The notes beneath the pieces are model-generated. The model saw nothing but the letters and a program-made list of their open reading frames with translations, was not told where the DNA came from and did not search any database. Both the position numbers and the translations under genes were made by a program. From Asaia bogorensis NBRC 16594 (GTDB lineage: Bacteria > Pseudomonadota > Alphaproteobacteria > Acetobacterales > Acetobacteraceae), in contig NZ_AP014690.1 of the NCBI RefSeq assembly GCF_001547995.1, positions 2,601,001-2,665,000 of the forward strand: a stretch of 64,000 bases of DNA, written 5' to 3'. This document shows, piece by piece, positions 14,800-27,415 of this stretch. Positions within the stretch are counted from its first letter, which is position 1. Each line of letters opens with the position of its first letter.

Positions 14800-15162
14800 T
14801 CAGCCCGTCACTCCTGTTAATCCGTCAAGCACATCCCGGGAAATATCAATAAGGGGAAATAGAGTCAGCTCCTCGTTCAGGATAGCCTGAATCCCGTATT
14901 TCTGAGCTTTGTCCGCAAGGTTTACAATCAACGCCCGTTCATCATCCGGTGTATGGCCGCTGTCAATAATATTCGCCTTCATGATAAGCGACCATAATTT
15001 CTGGTGTCGGTCGAGCGCTTTGGCGCGCAAGCTCGCGTCTGCCTCTGCATTTTGCAACTCTTCGATCATCATCGTGAAAGCGACCACCTCCGCTTCTCTA
15101 CCGGACAGGCTTGTCTCTGCGACTGCTTTATAGGCACGTAATCCAGGGTGCATGGCGTTCAT
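14800..15162 (-). CDS. flaF: Flagellar biosynthesis regulator FlaF
   Basis: FlaF is an alphaproteobacterial factor that works with FlbT in flagellin synthesis and secretion. The 120-residue helical product has the family pattern: AYKAVAETSLSGREAEVVAF near the start, ALDRHQKLWSLIM in the middle and LIVNLADKAQKYG towards the end. It faces the preceding gene tail to tail and precedes the flagellins. No FlbT gene is visible in this window. Confidence 0.82.
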   Translation of the reverse strand: MNAMHPGLRAYKAVAETSLSGREAEVVAFTMMIEELQNAEADASLRAKALDRHQKLWSLIMKANIIDSGHTPDDERALIVNLADKAQKYGIQAILNEELTLFPLIDISRDVLDGLTGVTG

Positions 15163-15243
15163 TTTTCAGCCCTTGCGGCAGGTCGGTGGTGATTAAATCT
15201 ACTATCTCAGTCGGGCTGAACATCAAGACCCTATGCGCACGAT

Positions 15244-16152
15244 CTACTCTTTCGGAACAGGTGGATGCTCTGAGCCTACACTTGGGAGCCATGAGAGTGT
15301 GCCCACACTACCCGCATGACCAGCCACGCTGTCAGGACCACTCCGGTTAAGGTGGAAATTACGTACACCAGCCAGATACTGCGACACCGTGTTGACCCGC
15401 TCGGGAAACATGTATCCCATGATCGCTGATATCTTCCGCGGGCTCATGCTGTTTGCAATCGACACGAGCACGTGGATATCCATGATGTTGAAAACCGCAG
15501 CGGCCTCTCTCGGCGGCATTTCCTCGTAGATCTTCACGAGACGCGAGGTCTCTGCGACCATCATCTCTTTATGCTGTGCCTGTTTTTCAGCAAGTTCGGC
15601 CATCGAATTATCAATGGCGCGCATCTTTTCCTCAAGAACGATACGCGCCGAGTCCAGAACGTGTTTCTGCTCCTCCAGCTTGCGACGTTCATCCTCTATG
15701 GATCCCTGGTGCGACAGCAGACGCTTTACCAGCTCAGCCTGGGCCTGATCTGTGGTCGGTGTATCTGTTACGTCCGTAGCACCACCCGACACACAGGATA
15801 TGCCGATACAGGATGCAGCAGGACCATCGTTCTTCAGGAAGGCTGCGTCGACCGGAATTGCATCGTCGTCAGCCCGGATCCCTTCCGATGTCACAGGGAT
15901 GGTCTTCCACCCTTCCGTGTTCGCCGAAGCCGCAGATACCGAAGGCTGCTCATTATGAGATTTGGGAGGTGGTGCCTGAAGCTTGGCAGTCAGATTTGCT
16001 GTATCGGTGTTTTCAGGCTGGGTGCCGCGGTCATCTTCACCCATACGACTGGCGAGCGCATGCACATTCATCGCAAGCGCTAGTGTCATAAAGATGGTCG
16101 ACACATGGAGTAGACGCCCAAGTGGAATTCGCGGCATGACCAAGAAACCCAA
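15244..16152 (-). CDS. motE: MotE-like flagellar protein with MgtE N-terminal-type domain
   Basis: In Sinorhizobium, MotE is a periplasmic chaperone for MotC. This 302-residue protein has an N-terminal hydrophobic segment (about residues 10-32), a low-complexity region to residue 140, a long coiled coil (about 145-205) and a C-terminal MgtE_N-like helical domain (LVKIYEEMPPREAAAVFNIM, then SPRKISAIMGYM). This architecture matches MotE/FlaE-type proteins. The last 35 residues are unstructured. It is read away from the flagellins and towards flaF, which lies 81 bases downstream. Confidence 0.75.
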   Translation of the reverse strand: MGFLVMPRIPLGRLLHVSTIFMTLALAMNVHALASRMGEDDRGTQPENTDTANLTAKLQAPPPKSHNEQPSVSAASANTEGWKTIPVTSEGIRADDDAIPVDAAFLKNDGPAASCIGISCVSGGATDVTDTPTTDQAQAELVKRLLSHQGSIEDERRKLEEQKHVLDSARIVLEEKMRAIDNSMAELAEKQAQHKEMMVAETSRLVKIYEEMPPREAAAVFNIMDIHVLVSIANSMSPRKISAIMGYMFPERVNTVSQYLAGVRNFHLNRSGPDSVAGHAGSVGTLSWLPSVGSEHPPVPKE

Positions 16153-16493
16153 AATTCAAATAGACAGATAAGAAAAAATAATCCGATATATACACTAACT
16201 ACTGAGCTACATTAGTTTATATATTTAAATTTAACCTGCGATGATACATTGCCCGCTAAAGGTCAAAATATCGATAACATTCGTATCACGTAATAGTTAT
16301 GCCTGCCCGATTTGGCAAGCACTTTCATCACGAAGAGTTGCCACACTCACCTTGCCCGTCTCTTACCTGGCAAAGCGAGGGTTGAGACTGGGCACCCGCG
16401 AGGAGGTCGCGCTCCAACAAGGATCGTGATACGAGACCCGCTGTATCGGCGCCTCGTGGTGGACGGCCCCACGCAACGACGGGCTCAAGACAG
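16153..16493. other. Spacer between motE and the flagellin cassette
   Basis: There is no supportable gene. The left 100 bases are AT-rich and presumably hold the motE promoter on the minus strand. The remainder has mixed composition with short open frames only. Confidence 0.45.
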
Positions 16494-16970
16494 CTAATCC
16501 CAGATCGGAGCCCTCACCGCACCACAAGTCTTGGTCGTCTCACGTGCTGCACATCCAGCCCCTTGAGCCAGCATTCTGACGGGAGCAGTCGAACCAAGCA
16601 TCAATTCTAGCTTCAGACCATGCAGTGTAACCATGATGATGGCCTCAATAGCGCGCCGAACCGGTCCCTTCGCGATGTGGTGGGAGCCGCCTTTCACAAG
16701 ATATGCCAATCGGCAGGAAACCCTATCACCTCAATACCGGTGATCGAGGCACCTTGCTGCACTATATTGAAATCGACAACGCGCTTCATCGAAGCCTGTC
16801 CGACAAACCACCAGTCACCTCTGTTTAGTGTAGCGTCTGTCATCCGATCCAACGTGATGGCTGTACGGGTATCATCTGGGTTCTTCCATTCTGGTAATCT
16901 TCTCTTATCCATTTCGGGTTTTATGATGCTTGCGTGGCCCGATATCTGGGCGAGCACCAGGAGAAATTCG
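16494..16970 (-). pseudogene. Frameshifted minus-strand coding remnant, faintly CsgG/HfaB-like
   Basis: Read on the minus strand, two consecutive frames look protein-like and join across a frameshift near 16705. The first contains GDWWFVGQASMKRVVDFNI and GASITGIEVIGFPADWHIL; the second contains HHIAKGPVRRAIEAIIMVTL. The order resembles the C-terminal part of CsgG-family secretion lipoproteins (a beta segment, then a helix with PVxxAIE), but this is pattern recognition only. It has no start of its own and lies in the 5' region of the first flagellin gene. It could equally be an unknown gene fragment. Confidence 0.25.
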
Positions 16971-17954
16971 ATGAGCCTTTCAATCAACACCAATGCCTCG
17001 GCGATGGTCGCCGTTCAGACCCTGAACGCCACCCAGACGGCCCTGAGCAACGCTGAAAACACCATCTCGACCGGCCGCAAGGTCTCGAGCGCTGCCGACA
17101 ACGCCGCTGCCTACGGCATCGCGCAGCAGATGCAGGGCAACGTCTCTGGCCAGTCCGCTGTGAATGACGGCCTCTCCTTCGCCGCACAGACGGTCAGCTC
17201 GACCAGCACCGCCGTCAACCAGATCATCAGCGTGCTCAACAGCGTCCAGAACGCAGTGACCACCCTTGGCAACAACCAGGGCAGCCCGGCCGCTCTCGAC
17301 CAGATCGGCACGCAGATCACCGGCCTGCTCCAGCAGATCGATACCATCGCACGTAACGCAACCTTCAACGGCGTGAACCTGATCTCGGGCAGCACAAGCG
17401 ACGGCCTGGGGATCACGTCCAGCAACCTCAGCTACATCACCGGCCTTCAGGGCGACCAGACGACCGTCACAGGCTTCAACGCCGCCATCGCTTCCTACAT
17501 GGGCGGAAGCAGCGTCGCTGGCGCACCGGCCGTTTCCTCCTCGTTCTTCCAGAGCGGCATCGCCGGCACAAGCCTGACCGACGCACTGGGCCTCACCACG
17601 GGCAGCGGCACGAGCGGTGCAAACCCGACCACCAACGTGTTCGAGTCCACAGGTGGCGTACTCGGCGGCAACAAGAGCGTTTCCGACATGATCTCGCAGG
17701 TTCAGGCCGCCATCAAGGCCATGACCTTCGTGACCTCCACCCTGGGCGCAAACACCAACGTCATCAACAACATGAGCACCTACGGCTCAAGCATCTCCGA
17801 CAACCTCACCAACGGTATCGGCTCCCTGACCGACGCAGACATGTCCGCAGCCAGCGCCAAGCTGACCTCGCTTCAGACCAAGCAGTCCCTCGCCATCAAG
17901 TCGCTTACCATCGCCAACTCACAGTCACAGAACATCCTCTCTCTCTTCCAGTAA
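16971..17954 (+). CDS. Flagellin (copy 1)
   Basis: This is the structural subunit of the flagellar filament, 327 residues. The conserved N-terminal helix (SLSINTNASAMVAVQTLN, then ENTISTGRKVSSAADNAAAY) and C-terminal helix (QSLAIKSLTIANSQSQNILS) form the polymer core; a Ser/Thr/Gly-rich middle (about residues 145-230) would be the surface-exposed, potentially glycosylated part. ATG 16971 is supported by AGGAGA at 16959-16964; the open frame reaching back to 16620 is spurious. GCCCGATAT at 16937-16945 resembles a sigma-28 -10 element, but no matching -35 is seen. Confidence 0.95.
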   Translation: MSLSINTNASAMVAVQTLNATQTALSNAENTISTGRKVSSAADNAAAYGIAQQMQGNVSGQSAVNDGLSFAAQTVSSTSTAVNQIISVLNSVQNAVTTLGNNQGSPAALDQIGTQITGLLQQIDTIARNATFNGVNLISGSTSDGLGITSSNLSYITGLQGDQTTVTGFNAAIASYMGGSSVAGAPAVSSSFFQSGIAGTSLTDALGLTTGSGTSGANPTTNVFESTGGVLGGNKSVSDMISQVQAAIKAMTFVTSTLGANTNVINNMSTYGSSISDNLTNGIGSLTDADMSAASAKLTSLQTKQSLAIKSLTIANSQSQNILSLFQ

Positions 17955-17962
17955 AATAAAAA

Positions 17963-17992
17963 AGGCCCCTCGCCTCCAACGGCAAGGGGCCT
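17963..17992 (-). terminator. Hairpin with minus-strand T tract after flagellin copy 1
   Basis: AGGCCCCT (17963-17970) pairs with AGGGGCCT (17985-17992), with an inner GCC/GGC. The run of A on the plus strand at 17953-17963 becomes a T tract only on the minus strand. It is therefore an intrinsic terminator for the glycosyltransferase operon and, for flagellin mRNA, only a 3' stabilising hairpin. Confidence 0.75.
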
Positions 17993-18015
17993 GCCCTGAC
18001 GGCACATCTAAAAAA

Positions 18016-18744
18016 TCAACGTTGTGTCTGCACAGTGCTATTGGCCACATCGTTCTTGGCAAGAACGAGAGGTGGAAAAGCAACCCAGGCCTGCATCTTG
18101 TCGTAGCAAGCCGCCATCATATCATCGATGCCAGTATTTTCCTTGTTCTTCTCCAGACCAGGATAAAATGTCTGCATCGGCCGCAATGGCAGAACATGTG
18201 CCAGCATTTTGGAAATACCGCCGGGTGAGATGGAATAACCAATCAGCCCGTGAGCGCGCAGCAACCCAAACAGCAATGACTGCCCCGATTTTTTTCTGAA
18301 ATCCTCTTTGTATTTCAGAAGATTTTCGTGATCAAAGCGCGACGTGCAATAAAATCCTGTCTCCGCATTTCTAAATGTGAGGTGGGCATCTGTGTTGTAT
18401 CCCCACAACACTAGATCCCAATCTTCAGGCAGCGTGGCCAAGAGGTCAGTGCTTTTTTCATCGAAACTCTCGCTAATGATCGCATCATCTTCGAAAACTG
18501 TGCATCCCTGCCCTTCTTGCAGGGCGTTCGTCCATATCGTGAGATGAGACATGGCGCAGCCAAGCGCTCCAACGCTGTATTGCAAAGCGGGATCCAGGAT
18601 CTTCTGTGCAATAAGCACTGCGCGATCGAGCCTCAGACCGTCGATTGCCTCAAAAACCCGTACATCTGCGAAGGTAGGATTGTCGCGGCGAAAGGCCTCC
18701 AGTCGTTCAGGCGTGCGTGCGAGTGTGATAAGCCATTTGTTCAT
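18016..18744 (-). CDS. Family 25 glycosyltransferase (candidate flagellin modification)
   Basis: This is a LPS-type GT25 glycosyltransferase of 242 residues. The N-terminus WLITLARTPERLEAFRRDNP, the GALGCAMSHLTIW block, the acidic TVFEDDAI motif and LPEDWDLVLWG are characteristic. I start at the methionine of MNKWLITLAR (18744) because family similarity begins there; the open frame extends five codons further. It lies opposite to and between two identical flagellin genes, downstream of a larger glycosyltransferase fusion on the same strand. A role in decorating flagellin is inferred from position; LPS is the alternative. Confidence 0.8.
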   Translation of the reverse strand: MNKWLITLARTPERLEAFRRDNPTFADVRVFEAIDGLRLDRAVLIAQKILDPALQYSVGALGCAMSHLTIWTNALQEGQGCTVFEDDAIISESFDEKSTDLLATLPEDWDLVLWGYNTDAHLTFRNAETGFYCTSRFDHENLLKYKEDFRKKSGQSLLFGLLRAHGLIGYSISPGGISKMLAHVLPLRPMQTFYPGLEKNKENTGIDDMMAACYDKMQAWVAFPPLVLAKNDVANSTVQTQR

Positions 18745-18882
18745 ACGTTCCGTTTCCACACGCTCTCAATCTGATGAACAGAAACTTCTTGAATCACGAA
18801 AACATAACCGCGAGTCGGTGAAAGACGTGGGCCGCGAAAGCGCATCTCCACCTGCGGTGCCCGAAGTCAGCTCTATCGTTAT

Positions 18883-21210
18883 CTAGCCCGTTGCCGGACG
18901 ATAGCGCACGACCTCAGTAAGGCCCGGAGAACCCTTGATTATCAACCTAGCCAATGTTTCGGTTGTGAAGCCAAAAGGCGCAAGTGAAAAATCGAGGCGA
19001 CCACCTCGGATATGTTTGCCATCAACTTTGTCTTCGTTGATGACGGGATAGTCAGGCAGCATATAATTAACCAGAATTATTTCTCGGTATCGCGAGATAT
19101 TACTGATCGCCTTGATGATCGACTGATTTGAGAGATGTTGCAATACATCTTTCACGATAACCAAATCCCCGTCAGCAACGGGAACCTGCTCGACAAGATT
19201 GATTACGCCGAAATGCACATTCGTTAGATTGGAGTAAGTACGTTTATTTACAGCAATAACTTCGTACACAAGATCCATCGCGACGAACATTGTGTCCGGG
19301 CAACGCCGTGCGATTTCGGCCCCCACTCGGAAATCTCCACAGCCAATATCTAGCACTGTCCGGAATTTATTGCGTATAATATAGTGACATATAAAGTTTA
19401 TATAATCACTACATTTATCAGGATCTGACCCAACCCCCGAATATACTTTACCGGAACTTCCCCAATCATTGTTTCTGTAAATCTGCTGAAATACAGATTG
19501 CAATCCATGATCTCCCGTCGATACGAGAGGGAATGCAGCGCACCTATCGCGTAGCTCAGCAAGGTGTTCGATATGGCCCTTGCTAAGAATCGCACGGCAG
19601 GCGAGCGAATAGGTATCAAACCGCGACCAGATATTGGCTTCGTCTATTTCTTTGAGGACTGGCCACGACATACTTTCCCACAGATGGAAAACGTATGCGT
19701 CCGGAAAAGCGACAGCCTGCTCGAAAAGCGAGGAAAGCCCTGCTCGGTCCCAGGAAGGTACAAAGAAAGCTTCCGGAGCAAGAATGGCCCCCAGACCAGG
19801 TCGCGCTGCATTCAGAAGGTGGGGCATCTTTGTCGAAGAATGCGCCCAGTACCGGGAGTCGAAATGCTTGTAGCTGTCCCACCATGCAGCCATGAACGGG
19901 GCGTCTGGTGGGGAGAGTATAACTGAATTGCCCAGACTTTCGGCTTCCACCCTTGGATCTGTTGAGATGAGCTCGCGAGCCATAACAGTTTGCGTCGCGG
20001 AGAAGAGGGGTTCCAGACTTTTGAGGGTGATCGTATCCAGGTCGAGATAAATTCCACCGTATGCCCGCAAGACACTCATTCTGATGATATCTGACTGATG
20101 AGCAGGATGCATGACCGGATTACCAAAAATACGCTGCGGCGCAGGTACGATCACAATATCCGCTATATGCTTTACTGCCTCCCAATAGGGCCCTTCACGT
20201 TCGGCGATGCACCAGAGGACAATCCTGAACCCCGGATGATGAGTCGCTGCGGAAAGCACAGCCATATAATGACTGAAGCCGAAAGGCCTGATACCAGGCG
20301 GCTTTTTCTCGGAGAAGTAATTCACGTCATCAAAGACGACTTTTTCAGGGGTGGTCTCGACAAAATGAATGAGCTTGGGAAAAGCTTCAGCTTCATTCGA
20401 ACAGATAGGACGACATGCACTTTTGCTCAGGCAATCATCGAAAAGCTGCCTGACATTGATATACGCATAGTCAAATGACTCATCGACAGCTCCAACAGAC
20501 TTGAAAACGTCTTCTGGTAGCCGGCCAACAACCAGCGGGGGGAATGAGACATGCGCAGCCATAGCACCATGTTCGATCAAACTCGAAAAGAGGGTGCTAA
20601 GAGAGACGCCCCTCATCTCGCGCCCCGCCAGCTTGCTTCTGTAGCTATATTCTCGGATTGGCAGCGAATTCATCAGGATCGATGCGCCACGTGGCGAAAC
20701 CGTATATCCGGACATTCCCTCGATCGCGCTCAGTTTCAAGAGCAACGCAGGGGTTTTACGCTCTCCCAGAGGACCTGTAGGGCCGGTTGATGGATGGTCG
20801 TCACATTTGAGGATACAGTCACCCATCTGACTGGGCATTTTGACAATCATCAGGCCGTTGTAATCAACGCCCCAAACAATCAGGTCCCAATCCTCGGGAA
20901 GCGTCTGCAAGAGCGCGTTCGCCAGTTCCTCAAAATTATCTGGTATCGATGATTTATCGCTGAAGATTGTGCGCGGCACACCGTCAGCAACACACTGACT
21001 CCACTGAATGACATGGGAAAAGATTTCGGCCACCTGATCGTCCGACGCCCGGATATTAACATCCAGAAGGCCGTTCTCCACCATATAACTGCGATCGAGT
21101 GCGAGCACGTCAAATGACGGTACCACTTCCAGATTGTCAGCCGCAGGATTTCTTTTTCTGAACTTTCTCAGTGTTTCAGCATCTGCTTTGGAGATCACGC
21201 GAAGAACCAT
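18883..21210 (-). CDS. Three-domain GT25-like / DxD glycosyltransferase / SAM methyltransferase fusion
   Basis: This 775-residue fusion has three parts. Residues 1-240 align along their length with the neighbouring GT25 protein (shared LPEDWDL and GYTVSPRG-type blocks), but the catalytic EDD is replaced by SDK (TIFSDKSS), so this part is probably inactive or only structural. Residues 280-560 form a sugar transferase with a DxD motif in YGGIYLDLDTI (DLD at 390-392). Residues 575-775 are a class I methyltransferase with VLDIGCGD (619-626). I start at MVLRVIS (21210) from the paralogy; the open frame continues to 21348. The likely job is building and methylating a flagellin glycan, which is inference. 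Confidence 0.8.
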   Translation of the reverse strand: MVLRVISKADAETLRKFRKRNPAADNLEVVPSFDVLALDRSYMVENGLLDVNIRASDDQVAEIFSHVIQWSQCVADGVPRTIFSDKSSIPDNFEELANALLQTLPEDWDLIVWGVDYNGLMIVKMPSQMGDCILKCDDHPSTGPTGPLGERKTPALLLKLSAIEGMSGYTVSPRGASILMNSLPIREYSYRSKLAGREMRGVSLSTLFSSLIEHGAMAAHVSFPPLVVGRLPEDVFKSVGAVDESFDYAYINVRQLFDDCLSKSACRPICSNEAEAFPKLIHFVETTPEKVVFDDVNYFSEKKPPGIRPFGFSHYMAVLSAATHHPGFRIVLWCIAEREGPYWEAVKHIADIVIVPAPQRIFGNPVMHPAHQSDIIRMSVLRAYGGIYLDLDTITLKSLEPLFSATQTVMARELISTDPRVEAESLGNSVILSPPDAPFMAAWWDSYKHFDSRYWAHSSTKMPHLLNAARPGLGAILAPEAFFVPSWDRAGLSSLFEQAVAFPDAYVFHLWESMSWPVLKEIDEANIWSRFDTYSLACRAILSKGHIEHLAELRDRCAAFPLVSTGDHGLQSVFQQIYRNNDWGSSGKVYSGVGSDPDKCSDYINFICHYIIRNKFRTVLDIGCGDFRVGAEIARRCPDTMFVAMDLVYEVIAVNKRTYSNLTNVHFGVINLVEQVPVADGDLVIVKDVLQHLSNQSIIKAISNISRYREIILVNYMLPDYPVINEDKVDGKHIRGGRLDFSLAPFGFTTETLARLIIKGSPGLTEVVRYRPATG

Positions 21211-21549
21211 CGTCCTGCTTCCGTATCGACTCGTACTGTGAAAGTGCTGTCTGGCCATTGCCACATGGATCTCAAGACAGTCGGATTTGTCTTTGTATGA
21301 CCGAGGATCACAGCCGAGACAACACTCCTCCACTCGAGCGCGCGCCATGTCTTGATGTTGGTTTCCCCTGAGATCGTTAATGAGACGTATCGGTCATCGC
21401 TGTTTGCTGTATCGTTTGTGGTCTGATCAAGCGTGATGGCTGTACGGGTATCATCTGGGTTCTTCCATTCTGGTAATCTTCTCTTATCCATTTCGGGTTT
21501 TATGATGCTTGCGTGGCCCGATATCTGGGCGAGCACCAGGAGAAATTCG
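21211..21549 (-). other. 5' region of flagellin copy 2 with minus-strand coding-like remnant
   Basis: Between the fusion gene and the second flagellin the minus strand holds an open frame of 125 codons (21195-21572) containing DDRYVSLTISGETN and KTWRALEWRSVVSAVILG. It corresponds in position to the remnant upstream of the first flagellin and shares the repeat-encoded stretch RRLPEWKNPDDTRTAITLD. I do not recognise it. It overlaps the flagellin leader, so expression is doubtful. Confidence 0.25.
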
Positions 21550-22533
21550 ATGAGCCTTTCAATCAACACCAATGCCTCGGCGATGGTCGCCGTTCAGACC
21601 CTGAACGCCACCCAGACGGCCCTGAGCAACGCTGAAAACACCATCTCGACCGGCCGCAAGGTCTCGAGCGCTGCCGACAACGCCGCTGCCTACGGCATCG
21701 CGCAGCAGATGCAGGGCAACGTCTCTGGCCAGTCCGCTGTGAATGACGGCCTCTCCTTCGCCGCACAGACGGTCAGCTCGACCAGCACCGCCGTCAACCA
21801 GATCATCAGCGTGCTCAACAGCGTCCAGAACGCAGTGACCACCCTTGGCAACAACCAGGGCAGCCCGGCCGCTCTCGACCAGATCGGCACGCAGATCACC
21901 GGCCTGCTCCAGCAGATCGATACCATCGCACGTAACGCAACCTTCAACGGCGTGAACCTGATCTCGGGCAGCACAAGCGACGGCCTGGGGATCACGTCCA
22001 GCAACCTCAGCTACATCACCGGCCTTCAGGGCGACCAGACGACCGTCACAGGCTTCAACGCCGCCATCGCTTCCTACATGGGCGGAAGCAGCGTCGCTGG
22101 CGCACCGGCCGTTTCCTCCTCGTTCTTCCAGAGCGGCATCGCCGGCACAAGCCTGACCGACGCACTGGGCCTCACCACGGGCAGCGGCACGAGCGGTGCA
22201 AACCCGACCACCAACGTGTTCGAGTCCACAGGTGGCGTACTCGGCGGCAACAAGAGCGTTTCCGACATGATCTCGCAGGTTCAGGCCGCCATCAAGGCCA
22301 TGACCTTCGTGACCTCCACCCTGGGCGCAAACACCAACGTCATCAACAACATGAGCACCTACGGCTCAAGCATCTCCGACAACCTCACCAACGGTATCGG
22401 CTCCCTGACCGACGCAGACATGTCCGCAGCCAGCGCCAAGCTGACCTCGCTTCAGACCAAGCAGTCCCTCGCCATCAAGTCGCTTACCATCGCCAACTCA
22501 CAGTCACAGAACATCCTCTCTCTCTTCCAGTAA
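21550..22533 (+). CDS. Flagellin (copy 2, identical protein to copy 1)
   Basis: This second flagellin gene encodes the same 327 residues as the one at 16971. It shares the same 118-base leader including AGGAGA and the promoter-like GCCCGATAT, now at 21516-21524. The frame open from 21433 is an upstream extension without its own ribosome site. Complete identity suggests either a recent duplication or continuing gene conversion, while upstream bases have already diverged. Confidence 0.95.
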   Translation: MSLSINTNASAMVAVQTLNATQTALSNAENTISTGRKVSSAADNAAAYGIAQQMQGNVSGQSAVNDGLSFAAQTVSSTSTAVNQIISVLNSVQNAVTTLGNNQGSPAALDQIGTQITGLLQQIDTIARNATFNGVNLISGSTSDGLGITSSNLSYITGLQGDQTTVTGFNAAIASYMGGSSVAGAPAVSSSFFQSGIAGTSLTDALGLTTGSGTSGANPTTNVFESTGGVLGGNKSVSDMISQVQAAIKAMTFVTSTLGANTNVINNMSTYGSSISDNLTNGIGSLTDADMSAASAKLTSLQTKQSLAIKSLTIANSQSQNILSLFQ

Positions 22534-22541
22534 AATAAAAA

Positions 22542-22571
22542 AGGCCCCTCGCCTCCAACGGCAAGGGGCCT
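22542..22571 (-). terminator. Hairpin with minus-strand T tract after flagellin copy 2
   Basis: This is the same hairpin as at 17963-17992. Here the minus-strand gene it would terminate is the secreted protein ending at 22597. Confidence 0.7.
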
Positions 22572-22596
22572 GTTCATCCCATGGGTAGCTAGAGCC

Positions 22597-23280
22597 TTAC
22601 TCAACCGGACCGTTGAGTATACGCGCCGCCACGATGACCGAACCCCCTTCGGTTTCAGCGCCGGTCCGGAACATCCTCCATTTTCCAAGAGAAAAAACCC
22701 ACGTGCCGGTAAAACTGGCCACTTGGGCATGTGGTTTACAAACGCCATCAGGTTGTGATTCCTCCTGCCTGTTGCACTGCATGGCATCGGATTCCGTCAA
22801 CGGAATATAGACGTTGGTATTGAGCTGCGCAGTACGGCCGTGAATCTGAATTGATCCGTCTATCCCGCTTTTCTGTCCCTGTTGACCATTGTTCGAAACG
22901 TCGTCAGGCGTGCCGCGTGTTATGATATCTATATATTTTGTCTCGTTATCAGAACACACCTCGATTGAGGCCGATCCGATCACCCTGTTTTTTGCTTCCT
23001 GCCCGACATAATCGACAATTGCCTGCACCTCGGCGATCCGAACAACTCCAGAGGGACAACGTATGCTGTCTCCATTCCCGGGCAACACTGTACCAGCGTA
23101 AGCCGGAGCCGACATTCCTGTTAACCCCGTCGCCAGACACGGTACCGTAGCGCACAAGACCGCGCGCGCAGAGAGGAACAAGCCTCGCGGTGAAACCACT
23201 TTCATATCCTTCGTGAAGGTTCGTTCGATGGTTGGGCCACGATACCCGAAAAGTCGCACAGCTGAAGCATGACACGACAA
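22597..23280 (-). CDS. Secreted protein of unknown function
   Basis: I do not recognise this family. The longest frame has 227 residues; a signal peptide is evident (hydrophobic SARAVLCATVPCLATGLTG, cleavage likely after APAYA near residue 62), which favours starting at the internal MKVVSPRG methionine (23202). The mature part is beta-rich with four cysteines, a Gln/Gly-rich middle (NNGQQGQKSG) and a C-terminal block SFTGTWVFSLGKWRMFRTGAE. It lies between flagellin copy 2 and fliE on the opposite strand, so a surface or flagellum-related role is possible, not shown. Confidence 0.6.
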   Translation of the reverse strand: MSCHASAVRLFGYRGPTIERTFTKDMKVVSPRGLFLSARAVLCATVPCLATGLTGMSAPAYAGTVLPGNGDSIRCPSGVVRIAEVQAIVDYVGQEAKNRVIGSASIEVCSDNETKYIDIITRGTPDDVSNNGQQGQKSGIDGSIQIHGRTAQLNTNVYIPLTESDAMQCNRQEESQPDGVCKPHAQVASFTGTWVFSLGKWRMFRTGAETEGGSVIVAARILNGPVE

Positions 23281-23432
23281 ATTTCCTCAAAAAGCCCGAC
23301 GCCGGAAAAGTGATGTCACAGTGGGCGCACCGATAACGCTGCCGAAAGATATTGCTGTCATGATCGGTTCACGTTACGAACGACCTTGGCAACAATCTGC
23401 CCTCCCTGCGGCAGATGATTCGGTAGAGGCTC

Positions 23433-23768
23433 ATGATCAGCGACGTCACCACCCGTAGTTTCGACGCCATGAACGCGTATGGAGAAGTTCAGCGTAGCCT
23501 GCAATCCGCAACGGGCCCGGCCAAACAAGCTGACACCTCCAGCATTGGTACCGGAAGTTTTAGTGACGCACTCAGTGGTGCGCTGCAAGATGCGGTGCAT
23601 ACCGGAAAAGTTGCCGAAACCCAGACCGCGGCTGGTCTCTCAGGACATGGGGATATGACTGAGATCGCGACATCTGTCGCTGAGGCAAAATTGACGCTGC
23701 AGACCGTAACCGCAGTTCGTGATCGCTTTGTGCAAGCCTATCAAGATGTAATGAAAATGTCGATCTGA
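23433..23768 (+). CDS. fliE: Flagellar hook-basal body protein FliE
   Basis: FliE joins the MS ring to the rod. The 111-residue protein has the family's C-terminal helices: ATSVAEAKLTLQTVTAVRDRFVQAYQDVMKMSI. The N-terminal half is variable. It begins a compact fliE-Q-R-flhB run; fliQ starts 12 bases downstream. Confidence 0.88.
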   Translation: MISDVTTRSFDAMNAYGEVQRSLQSATGPAKQADTSSIGTGSFSDALSGALQDAVHTGKVAETQTAAGLSGHGDMTEIATSVAEAKLTLQTVTAVRDRFVQAYQDVMKMSI

Positions 23769-23780
23769 ACGCAGAACGGC

Positions 23781-24056
23781 ATGCAACATACGGTAGACAT
23801 TCATGAGATCCTGCAGGAATCCCTGTTCGTAGCGGTCAAGATGGGTGCCCCGTCGCTTCTCGCCTCGCTGGCAGCAGGCATCCTGATCTCGCTTTTCCAG
23901 GCAGTTACCCAGGTCAACGAAGCAACACTATCTTTTGTACCCAAATTTGTCGCTGCAATGCTTGCCCTTATGCTGACAAGCTCGTTTATTTACGCGACCC
24001 TGCATAATTATGCGATGCAGATTTTCGATCAGATGGTCATCGCTGGCGGATCATGA
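23781..24056 (+). CDS. fliQ: Flagellar export gate protein FliQ
   Basis: FliQ is a two-helix membrane subunit of the flagellar type III gate. The 91 residues contain both hydrophobic segments (about 18-40 and 55-78) and the hallmark LISLFQAVTQVNEATLSFVPK between them. Length and position before fliR are standard. Confidence 0.94.
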   Translation: MQHTVDIHEILQESLFVAVKMGAPSLLASLAAGILISLFQAVTQVNEATLSFVPKFVAAMLALMLTSSFIYATLHNYAMQIFDQMVIAGGS

Positions 24057-24109
24057 ACAGAGCAATGTCGACACGGCGGGCGTTGTTCGGAATAATGCGG
24101 AAAAGGTAG

Positions 24110-24895
24110 ATGTTGGCTCTTCCATCCCCCGATGTGGTAGCCGTCTATCTGATGATCCTGTGCCGTGTCAGTACACTTGTCATGGTAGCGCCAGGGCTGG
24201 GTGAGTCCACATCACCCATGACAGTGCGCGCAGGTATAGCTGTCACGATCTCTTTCCTGCTTGTCCCGCTGCTGGAGCCTGTGCTCACCCCCGTGGTGAC
24301 GCCAGCCCTCAAGAGCCCGGCTCTCCTGATCGTCATGATTGCTCAGGAATTGCTTATAGGAACTTTCATCGGATGGATGGCGCGACTGATCGCGATGTCA
24401 CTCATCATCGCTATGCAGTTCATTGCCACTTTCACGGGTCTGGCGAGTGTTTTACAACCCGACCCTGACTTGGGCGCCTCGAGCACCGCCATCAGTCATA
24501 TGGCCTCTTTCCTCATCCCGGTACTTTTTCTGACGACAGGATTGTATATCCTGCCCCTCGCCGCGCTCACAGGCTCTTACAAAGTGTTCTTGCCGGGCCA
24601 ATTCCCTTTTCTGAATGATATGGCGCAGGCTGCTGTCATGAGCGTATCATTGAGCTTCAGGCTTGGCCTCCAATACGCTGCTCCGTTCGTTCTTGTCGGC
24701 ACCCTGTGGCCTGCGCTTCTCGGCGTACTGAACCGACTAATGCCTGCTATTCAGGTTTACGGAATTGCCATGCCTGCCCAGCTTCTGGGCGGCGTATTCC
24801 TGATCGCTCTCCTGATTCAGGTCATCACTGGCGTCTGGCAGGAACGTATGCAGGAAACACTTCTTCAGCTTCCTGGCATCCATGCATTCCAATAA
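24110..24895 (+). CDS. fliR: Flagellar export gate protein FliR
   Basis: FliR is the single-copy polytopic subunit of the export gate. The 261 residues contain about six hydrophobic segments and family blocks such as RVSTLVMVAPGLGESTSP near the N-terminus and APFVLVGTLWPALLGVLNRLMPAIQ in the C-terminal half. It lies 53 bases after fliQ and 35 before flhB. Confidence 0.93.
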   Translation: MLALPSPDVVAVYLMILCRVSTLVMVAPGLGESTSPMTVRAGIAVTISFLLVPLLEPVLTPVVTPALKSPALLIVMIAQELLIGTFIGWMARLIAMSLIIAMQFIATFTGLASVLQPDPDLGASSTAISHMASFLIPVLFLTTGLYILPLAALTGSYKVFLPGQFPFLNDMAQAAVMSVSLSFRLGLQYAAPFVLVGTLWPALLGVLNRLMPAIQVYGIAMPAQLLGGVFLIALLIQVITGVWQERMQETLLQLPGIHAFQ

Positions 24896-26366: not shown

Positions 26367-26904
26367 TTACATTTCCACTATAAAGTCAGCCGGCTTCAGT
26401 CGATCAAGCACGCATATGTATTTTCGAAACAGGTAATGGCGTTGGTCTTTCTCTGGGACGTAATCAGCCATGCCACGCGAACGAGCCCGCCCGACAAGTG
26501 AATAAGCTTGGCAGGGCGGCACCCTAATCAAGATCGTGTCGTCAGATGCCCGTGCCAAACTGGTGATGACCTTATCGATGGCTGCTGCAGCCGCATCACT
26601 GCCTAGTTCCAGACATTGAGCCTCGCCCTCCGCCTCTACCCAAGAGGCGGCGTCGATCTCTGACCAGTCCGGTTCGTCCGTCAGACCGGCATGAAACTTC
26701 AGGATGGCTTCTAGCAGGCACCGTGCCGGGATAGATGGCGCGCAGGAAAGCGCGTAGCCGCAGGGTCCGATATGCCGACGCCTCCTTCGCAACCGAAATC
26801 CCAATGTGAAGAGGGGAGCGTCCGTTGACCTCGAATGAGGCAAACCTCTCACTCAAGCCACCGTGTCCGGCAAACAGATCAACGATGCCCAAAGTGGCTG
26901 ACAA
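26367..26904 (-). pseudogene. C5 cytosine DNA methyltransferase, frameshifted and truncated
   Basis: This is the N-terminal half of a DNA (cytosine-5) methyltransferase in two minus-strand frames. The first frame (from 26904) begins with motif I, IVDLFAGHGGLSERF. The second continues with DEPDWSEIDAASWVEAEGE and the catalytic PCQ loop (RVPPCQAYSLVGRARSRG), then stops at FIVEM where the family continues with the ENV motif and a target-recognition domain. The frameshift is near 26720-26740. It is divergent from vsr, its usual partner. No active methylase can be made from this locus. Confidence 0.85.
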
Positions 26905-26971
26905 GACAGGAACCTCTCGAATTCAAACGAACAGCTGCATAATAGGTTCTCAGCTTGAAGCCAGAAGGCAA

Positions 26972-27415
26972 ATGATAGAAGTCGTCAGCAAAGCAACAAG
27001 ATCCCGGATGATTGCCGGAATCCGGGGGAAGGATACAAAGCCAGAGCTGACTTTGCGCCAATCCCTACACGCATTGGGCTCTCGCTATCGGCTTCACGCC
27101 AAAGGAGTTCGTGGGAAACCGGACCTGATTCTGCCGAAATACAAGACAACTATCTTCGTACATGGCTGCTTCTGGCATTATCATCGTGGCTGTAGATACG
27201 CTACCACTCCGTCGACACGACCTAAATTCTGGATTTCCAAGTTCGAGGCAAATGTGGCGCGGGACAAAGCCGTTCGTTTGACATTGTTGAAAAAAGGATG
27301 GCGGGTCGCGACGGTTAAGGAATGCGCTCTTGGAACTGAGGTCAGTCTGACGACCGCAAGAGGTGTCTTGATTGCTTGGCGTCGGAACGGGGGGCGTGAG
27401 CTCGAGATAGGCTGA
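26972..27415 (+). CDS. vsr: Very short patch repair endonuclease Vsr
   Basis: Vsr nicks DNA 5' of the T in T:G mismatches that arise by deamination of 5-methylcytosine. The 147-residue protein has RSRMIAGIRGKDTKPEL at the start, the catalytic-aspartate block GKPDLILPKYKTTIFVHGCFWH and KKGWRVATVKECAL near the end, all standard. ATG 26972 is preceded by AGAAGG and starts where family similarity begins; the open frame reaches back to 26825 over the methylase start. The gene appears intact although its partner methylase is broken. Confidence 0.92.
   Translation: MIEVVSKATRSRMIAGIRGKDTKPELTLRQSLHALGSRYRLHAKGVRGKPDLILPKYKTTIFVHGCFWHYHRGCRYATTPSTRPKFWISKFEANVARDKAVRLTLLKKGWRVATVKECALGTEVSLTTARGVLIAWRRNGGRELEIG

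Follow-up and report, generated by a model that had tools for sequence, protein, structure and literature searches.

Identical flagellin genes bracket a variable, predicted flagellin-glycan cassette in Asaia

In a 64,000-nucleotide stretch of Asaia bogorensis NBRC 16594 (contig NZ_AP014690.1, positions 2,601,001 to 2,665,000; hereafter the window), two identical flagellin genes stand as direct repeats on either side of a short segment encoding two predicted glycan enzymes on the opposite strand. Comparison of this locus with its counterparts in other Asaia genomes leads us to a reading that we consider probable: that it is a stable slot for flagellin modification, in which an old flagellin duplication holds a variable cassette of predicted flagellin-glycan genes and the two flagellins are homogenised by gene conversion.

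Results and Discussion

Two identical flagellin units and the segment between them

Base-by-base alignment of positions 16853-17993 with 21432-22572 gave 1141 identical bases out of 1141, with zero mismatches, bearing out the claim of an earlier note on the window that a 1141-bp direct repeat with a 118-bp leader and a 3' hairpin stands on both sides. Each copy consists of the leader, a flagellin open reading frame (ORF) and the hairpin, and the two copies are spaced 4579 bp apart. The identity stops exactly at 16853/17993 and 21432/22572, with only a weak likeness of 36 columns directly upstream. The repeat DNA matches exactly two places in the whole 3,198,265-base single-contig genome, and no third flagellin protein was matched in the A. 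bogorensis genome at the search cut-off.

The 3438-bp segment between the repeats is low in G+C (0.501, against 0.574 for the window and 62% for the flagellin), and among its ORFs of at least 80 amino acids (aa) we judged two to be credible genes, both on the minus strand, in agreement with what the earlier note had reported for the window: a glycosyltransferase of family GT25, and a fusion of glycosyltransferase and methyltransferase parts. The E-D-D stretch of the cassette GT25 is also present in the other four GT25 proteins aligned. In the fusion, the N-terminal third is GT25-like (28% identity to the adjacent GT25) and lacks E-D-D, for which the three fusion-bearing genomes have S-D-K or G-D-K; it is possible that this part only binds substrate. 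The middle part passes the Gly_transf_sug cut-off and carries D-L-D, and the C-terminal methyltransferase has D-I-G-C-G. We take these motifs of the two proteins (E-D-D, D-L-D and D-I-G-C-G) to be catalytic. The fusion also matched the TcdA_TcdB model below its cut-off, over 23 residues around D-L-D, a match that we take to reflect the shared sugar-binding motif only. The longest ORF of the fusion gene extends to 21348, and similarity to its relative in Asaia sp. W19 begins near 21228.

A slot with conserved flanks and variable content

We searched nine Asaia genomes, one per species, the related ones being draft contigs. Both genes that flank the repeats in the window were found in six of the nine (G000, G001, G004, G006, G007 and G008), and in the other three (G002, G003 and G005) neither flank gene nor flagellin was matched. 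Loss of the flagellar region has been reported for one Asaia isolate (PMC6317953). Given that Table 4 of another study marks flagella as present in all nine of its Asaia genomes (PMC8156966), we do not claim that G002, G003 and G005 are without flagella.

Flagellin was matched in four of the nine genomes, and all eight matches outside the window genome sit at contig ends, as expected from a collapsed repeat. Draft Asaia assemblies thus lose flagellin: there was no match in five of nine, yet G001 and G006 are among these and carry both flank genes. Compared across the related genomes, the bracket described in the earlier note reappears: the layout flagellin-cassette-flagellin is present in four of the six genomes with both flanks (the window genome, A. 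lannensis, W19 and G007). A 3577-bp contig of A. lannensis carries GT25 and the fusion, with the leader at one end and the 3' end of flagellin at the other, while its left and right flanks lie on separate contigs, each terminating in the flagellin unit. The same holds for W19, in which the cassette contig ends in flagellin-unit sequence on both sides and the flanks are separate. In G007, one end of a 7710-bp contig is the 5' end of flagellin, and the opposite end is a 190-bp copy, 97% identical, of the sequence adjacent to the right flank gene; the duplicated unit there apparently extended into the right flank gene.

The window, A. lannensis and W19 share GT25 and the fusion, the closest named matches of the fusion protein being those of A. 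lannensis NBRC 102526 (98%) and Asaia sp. W19 (NZ_PNQZ; 72%). The cassette of G007 differs and holds five genes, encoding a GT25 (34% to that of the window), an FkbM methyltransferase, a DUF3431 protein, a GT2 and a 702-aa protein without a confident Pfam match. These genes lie on both strands, so the opposite-strand-only gene content that the earlier note described is a property of the window and not of the locus in general. The slot is therefore conserved in its flanks and variable in its content, the cassette having probably been replaced or rebuilt between Asaia clades.

Two further interpretations of these contigs were considered and set aside. Tandem amplification of the cassette in W19 was rejected: contig C213 equals C170 at 100% over 3075 bp, with only 13 bases beyond, and is more likely a redundant contig than a further flagellin with a partial cassette; it was left out of the evidence. 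Nor do we favour a recent horizontal acquisition of the fusion in the clade of the window, its 72% identity to W19 being close to the values for the flank genes (69% and 73%). Separately, an unplaced 3.9-kb piece of W19 (C207, locus L107) carries relatives of the G007 702-aa protein (here with a Hydrolase match) and of GT2, and the start of an FkbM gene. The PNQZ accession series is named Asaia sp. W19 in the records and strain W12 in the literature (PMC8156966).

Concerted evolution of the two flagellins

We compared the left and right flagellin copies of two species at a time, in four four-sequence comparisons of which the 271- and 458-base stretches partly overlap. Sites that distinguish the species numbered 19 of 271, 21 of 256, 48 of 458 and 37 of 222, and sites that distinguish left from right copies numbered zero in all four. 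One copy alone deviated at 1, 1, 3 and 0 sites in the 271-, 256-, 458- and 222-base comparisons, and the first had one mixed site in addition. Between W19 and G007 the counts were 23 of 256 species-specific and none copy-specific. The pattern extends to the 3' hairpin, which in W19 differs in sequence from that of the window, yet is the same in both copies within each.

These sequences indicate that the flagellin copies evolve in concert, being alike within a genome and different between species, and the pattern supports gene conversion as the mechanism that homogenises them, as the earlier note had proposed. Diverged species bracket the same orthologous cassette, which makes independent duplication in each species unlikely. 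In A. lannensis, 4 of 91 sites were species-specific; given that the overlaps are exactly 91 bp on both sides, which is probably the word length of the assembler, this count is weak evidence. Directly upstream of the repeat, the left copy of A. lannensis is nearer to the right copy of the window than to its left copy (13 of 91 sites at which one of the four is odd). A shift of the conversion boundary would produce such a pattern, and the caution over the 91 bp applies here too.

A recent duplication, or a repeat wrongly expanded in assembly, would also account for copies that are 100% identical in the window genome. However, W19 and G007 have the bracket too, with flagellins that depart from those of the window at 8-12% of sites (88-92% identity), own copies more than 99% alike (3 differences in 458 bases for W19 and 1 in 262 for G007) and two distinct flanks. 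Because the copies differ at these few sites, the contig ends of W19 and G007 were assembled apart. The window genome is moreover a single contig, and the related drafts break at flagellin with distinct left and right flanks, so that an assembly artefact, which the earlier note had named as a refutation, is unlikely; we regard recent duplication or misassembly as very improbable.

Constraint on the cassette and the possible deletion switch

The cassette genes are under constraint and not in decay. Between the window and A. lannensis, nonsynonymous divergence (dN) is well below synonymous divergence (dS), with dN/dS of 0.195 for the fusion and 0.165 for GT25, beside 0.170 for the left flank gene; between the window and W19, dS is saturated for the fusion, GT25 and FliE and gives no ratio.

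Long direct repeats recombine with each other, deleting the DNA between them. It was on this basis that the earlier note proposed a one-way or population-level switch between glycosylated and bare filaments. In such a switch, recombination between the repeats would loop out 4579 bp, and cells with one flagellin and no cassette enzymes would be kept for bet-hedging or as a one-way change of the filament surface. From what is generally known of homologous recombination, the length and identity of the repeats make such deletion expected, and the inter-repeat segment is self-contained. Against this, a single flagellin joining both flanks was seen in none of the six flank-bearing genomes (four have the cassette and two have contig breaks), the cassette genes look constrained, a candidate glycosylation enzyme of the FlmG type (see below) is encoded outside the cassette, and loss would be irreversible without new DNA. 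Because of the absence of the deleted state from these six genomes and the dN/dS constraint, we hold an evolved deletion switch to be improbable and rate a maintained glycan slot that varies between clades highest.

The other reading in the earlier note, a transposable cassette, found no support: no transposase was seen among the ORFs of the segment (of which the two main genes were compared with Pfam), and there are no inverted repeats of at least 20 bp in 15000-24500.

Is flagellin the substrate?

Relatives of the G007 GT25 with at least 48% identity were found in 22 non-Asaia genomes of three genera, among 397 genomes of the family searched. A full-length flagellin was among the matches listed for all 22, and in 16 of them GT25 and flagellin lay on one contig within about 31 kb, in a tally made by eye with the cut-off set afterwards and with genomes of the same genus not independent of one another. 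Within Asaia, one GT25 with about 35-38% identity to the G007 GT25 query is present in all nine genomes, and a second GT25 in five of the six genomes with the flank genes and none of the three without. From its position and from these flagellum-linked relatives, the cassette likely modifies flagellin, and the flagellin modification suggested in the earlier note is to that extent supported as a prediction. Flagellin has been reported among the proteins released by A. bogorensis (PMC12502724).

The identical flagellins might alternatively serve gene dosage and nothing else, giving more flagellin, with the sugar genes incidental or acting on lipopolysaccharide. Flagellin is a product in high demand, and concerted tandem flagellins have been described in Alteromonadales (PMC6053082). 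On the other hand, the unlike sets of sugar enzymes in the slot of different clades, the flagellum-linked GT25 relatives in other genera and the occurrence of the second GT25 only with the flank genes among Asaia genomes speak against gene dosage alone, and we think it rather unlikely.

A FlmG-like tetratricopeptide repeat (TPR) protein is encoded about 39 kb upstream of flagellin 1, outside the window, with TPR matches and a sub-threshold match to Glyco_transf_9; against NCBIfam, no model reached its cut-off with this protein. Matches to it of at least 49% occur in all six Asaia genomes with the flanks, on the contig of the left flank gene, and in none of the three without (best 30-32%). In G001 the gene is split in two; in G006 it is likewise split and also contains a stop. 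PF01973 (MptE-like/Maf-type) matched in none of the nine Asaia genomes, and among 14 controls it matched only in four archaea, being the wrong model for bacterial Maf. Because the FlmG-like enzyme lies outside the cassette, loss of the cassette would more likely shorten the glycan than bare the filament.

Origin of the locus and points against the proposed reading

Nine flagellin loci were fetched from related genera. In six of these, from two genera (G375, G387, G180 and G322; G068 and G340), flagellin adjoins the right flank gene, followed by fliE-fliQ-fliR-flhB, without a cassette. The ancestral state was thus probably a single flagellin without a cassette, and the duplication may have arisen by tandem duplication and insertion, or by integration, through a single crossover, of circular DNA bearing flagellin and cassette.

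A number of observations weigh against a maintained, homogenised glycan slot. The ends of draft contigs may carry a blended consensus, and the identity of the A. lannensis copies was possibly made by the assembler. The contigs of G001 and G006 break before flagellin and do not span the slot (one contig of G001 that carries a GT25 of 70% identity does end at a distance that would fit), and G006 is the flank-bearing genome in which the second GT25 was not found. GT25 enzymes are best known from lipopolysaccharide synthesis, as the Pfam name says. Finally, three of the nine related loci depart from the simple order, so that the ancestral state is not certain: in G220 and G130, flagellin has a GT25 within 5 kb but no right flank gene beside it, and in G276 two unlike flagellins are adjacent. 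In G220 (locus L118), two adjacent TPR-rich genes and a GT25 lie within about 10 kb of flagellin, and the one TPR-rich gene tested gave TPR matches only.

With these points in mind, we propose that in the Asaia lineage a single flagellin gave rise to two copies enclosing sugar-transfer genes, and that gene conversion would have kept the two flagellins alike while the species diverged, so that one and the same filament protein would be made from both. The GT25 and the fusion of a GT32-like glycosyltransferase with a methyltransferase would most likely extend and methylate a flagellin glycan, the first sugar perhaps being added by the FlmG-like TPR-glycosyltransferase; this order of addition is a suggestion. 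The content of the cassette would have been replaced or rebuilt between clades. Recombination between the copies must be able to delete the cassette, although its deletion has not been seen as a lasting state.

One route of replacement is conceivable, if doubtful: the identical flagellins may be kept as homology arms, such that incoming flagellin-cassette-flagellin DNA would swap the glycan genes and flagellin would never be lost. If the copies do serve as exchange arms, they would offer a simple route to alter a surface structure with the flagellin gene unchanged.

Relation to known systems

Glycosylation islands flanked by up to three flagellin genes, 13.4-30.4 kb in size, have been described in Geobacillus (PMC5109656). 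Like these, the Asaia locus has variable sets of glycan genes beside flagellin in a flagellar locus, with conserved flanks and G+C below that of its surroundings; the diversification of the Geobacillus glycans by methyl, acetyl and formyl groups, as that paper describes it, is a further likeness. In contrast, the portion of the paper cited here describes Geobacillus flagellins as distinct, with FlaA1/FlaA2 highly variable, and some islands as including sugar-biosynthesis genes, whereas in Asaia an identical pair surrounds 3.4 kb. The ornamentation loci of Enterobacteriaceae have GT2, GT25 or GT41 genes in flagellin loci, with GT25 in some Pantoea, and are inferred to decorate flagellin; unlike the case in Asaia, duplicated identical flagellins are not mentioned in the sections of that report that we cite, and the letter string 'duplicat' is absent from its text (PMC4875605).

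The FlmG-like protein resembles, by its layout and not by a direct comparison with FlmG, the TPR and glycosyltransferase enzyme of flagellin O-glycosylation in Caulobacter, for which the cited part of the account mentions no cassette of GT25, GT32 and methyltransferase such as that of Asaia (PMC7591256). The Alteromonadales flagellins are likewise paralogs closer within than between species, as the Asaia copies are even though their duplication is older; they are arranged in tandem, with no cassette between them mentioned in the cited text, whereas the Asaia copies bracket one (PMC6053082). Campylobacter jejuni flaA/flaB also offers two highly alike flagellins in one genome, but these are 95% and not 100% identical, and the passages cited mention no cassette between them (PMC4009794).

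Flagellin-flanked glycosylation islands, GT25 genes in flagellin loci and concerted flagellins are thus known, and what is new is the identical arms. In the open-access literature searched, we found no report of a variable glycan cassette set between direct repeats of identical flagellins, and no account of the Asaia twin-flagellin locus in acetic acid bacteria. Two known phenomena, the flagellin glycosylation island and the concerted evolution of flagellins, meet here in a single compact locus, in a bacterium that is used in work on mosquito paratransgenesis (PMC12502724).

Features of the locus and its surroundings

Table 1. Features of the twin-flagellin locus and its surroundings. Coordinates are window positions unless a contig is named.
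Feature	Coordinates	Strand	Evidence or remark
FlaF, left flank	14800..15162	-	PF07309, 4.9e-19
Left flank gene	15244..16152	-	Sub-threshold MgtE_N match; present in 6/9 Asaia genomes
Direct repeat copy 1 (leader, flagellin, hairpin)	16853..17993	+	1141/1141 identity to copy 2
Leader element TGGTAATCTTCTCTTATCCATTT upstream of flagellin 1 (probable promoter or control element)	16892..16914	+	Copy 2 at 21471-21493
Flagellin gene 1, 327 aa	16971..17954	+	Flagellin_N 1.3e-24, Flagellin_C 1.6e-10
GC-rich hairpin 3' of flagellin 1, between convergent genes (probable terminator)	17963..17992	.	Copy 2 at 22542-22571
GT25 glycosyltransferase with E-D-D stretch	18016..18759	-	PF01755, 2.3e-17; alignment
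Fusion: GT25-like N part, GT32-like middle (Gly_transf_sug, D-L-D), C-terminal methyltransferase (Methyltransf_25)	18883..21210	-	Pfam; alignment
Direct repeat copy 2	21432..22572	+	One of only two genome matches
Flagellin gene 2, 327 aa, identical to gene 1	21550..22533	+	Alignment; genome protein search
Right flank gene	22597..23280	-	Without Pfam or NCBIfam family; 3' end duplicated beside G007 cassette
FliE, first gene right of slot	23433..23768	+	PF02049, 1.9e-19
Two TPR-glycosyltransferase-like genes (L121)	G000:C1:2577152-2578609 and 2562704-2563720		Same contig, upstream; first is the FlmG-like match

The leader element listed in Table 1 has a counterpart at about equal distance in the eight leaders compared from related genera. 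W19 and G007 also have it in each of their two copies, and in these two genomes the similarity between left and right copies starts at this element; it is probably a promoter or control element. The GC-rich hairpin, recognised by eye, is probably a terminator. The left flank gene we presume to be MotE-like.

Between the left flank gene and flagellin 1, some 450-470 bp (window 16330-16850) are present in the window and A. lannensis and not in W19 or G007. Outside the window genome and A. lannensis, this extra DNA gave matches only for its outer parts and the leader, and an ORF within it had no Pfam family. Further to the right, at window 26596-27415, an ORF resembling a Vsr-type endonuclease stands beside what appears to be the broken start of a cytosine methyltransferase gene, both named by eye.

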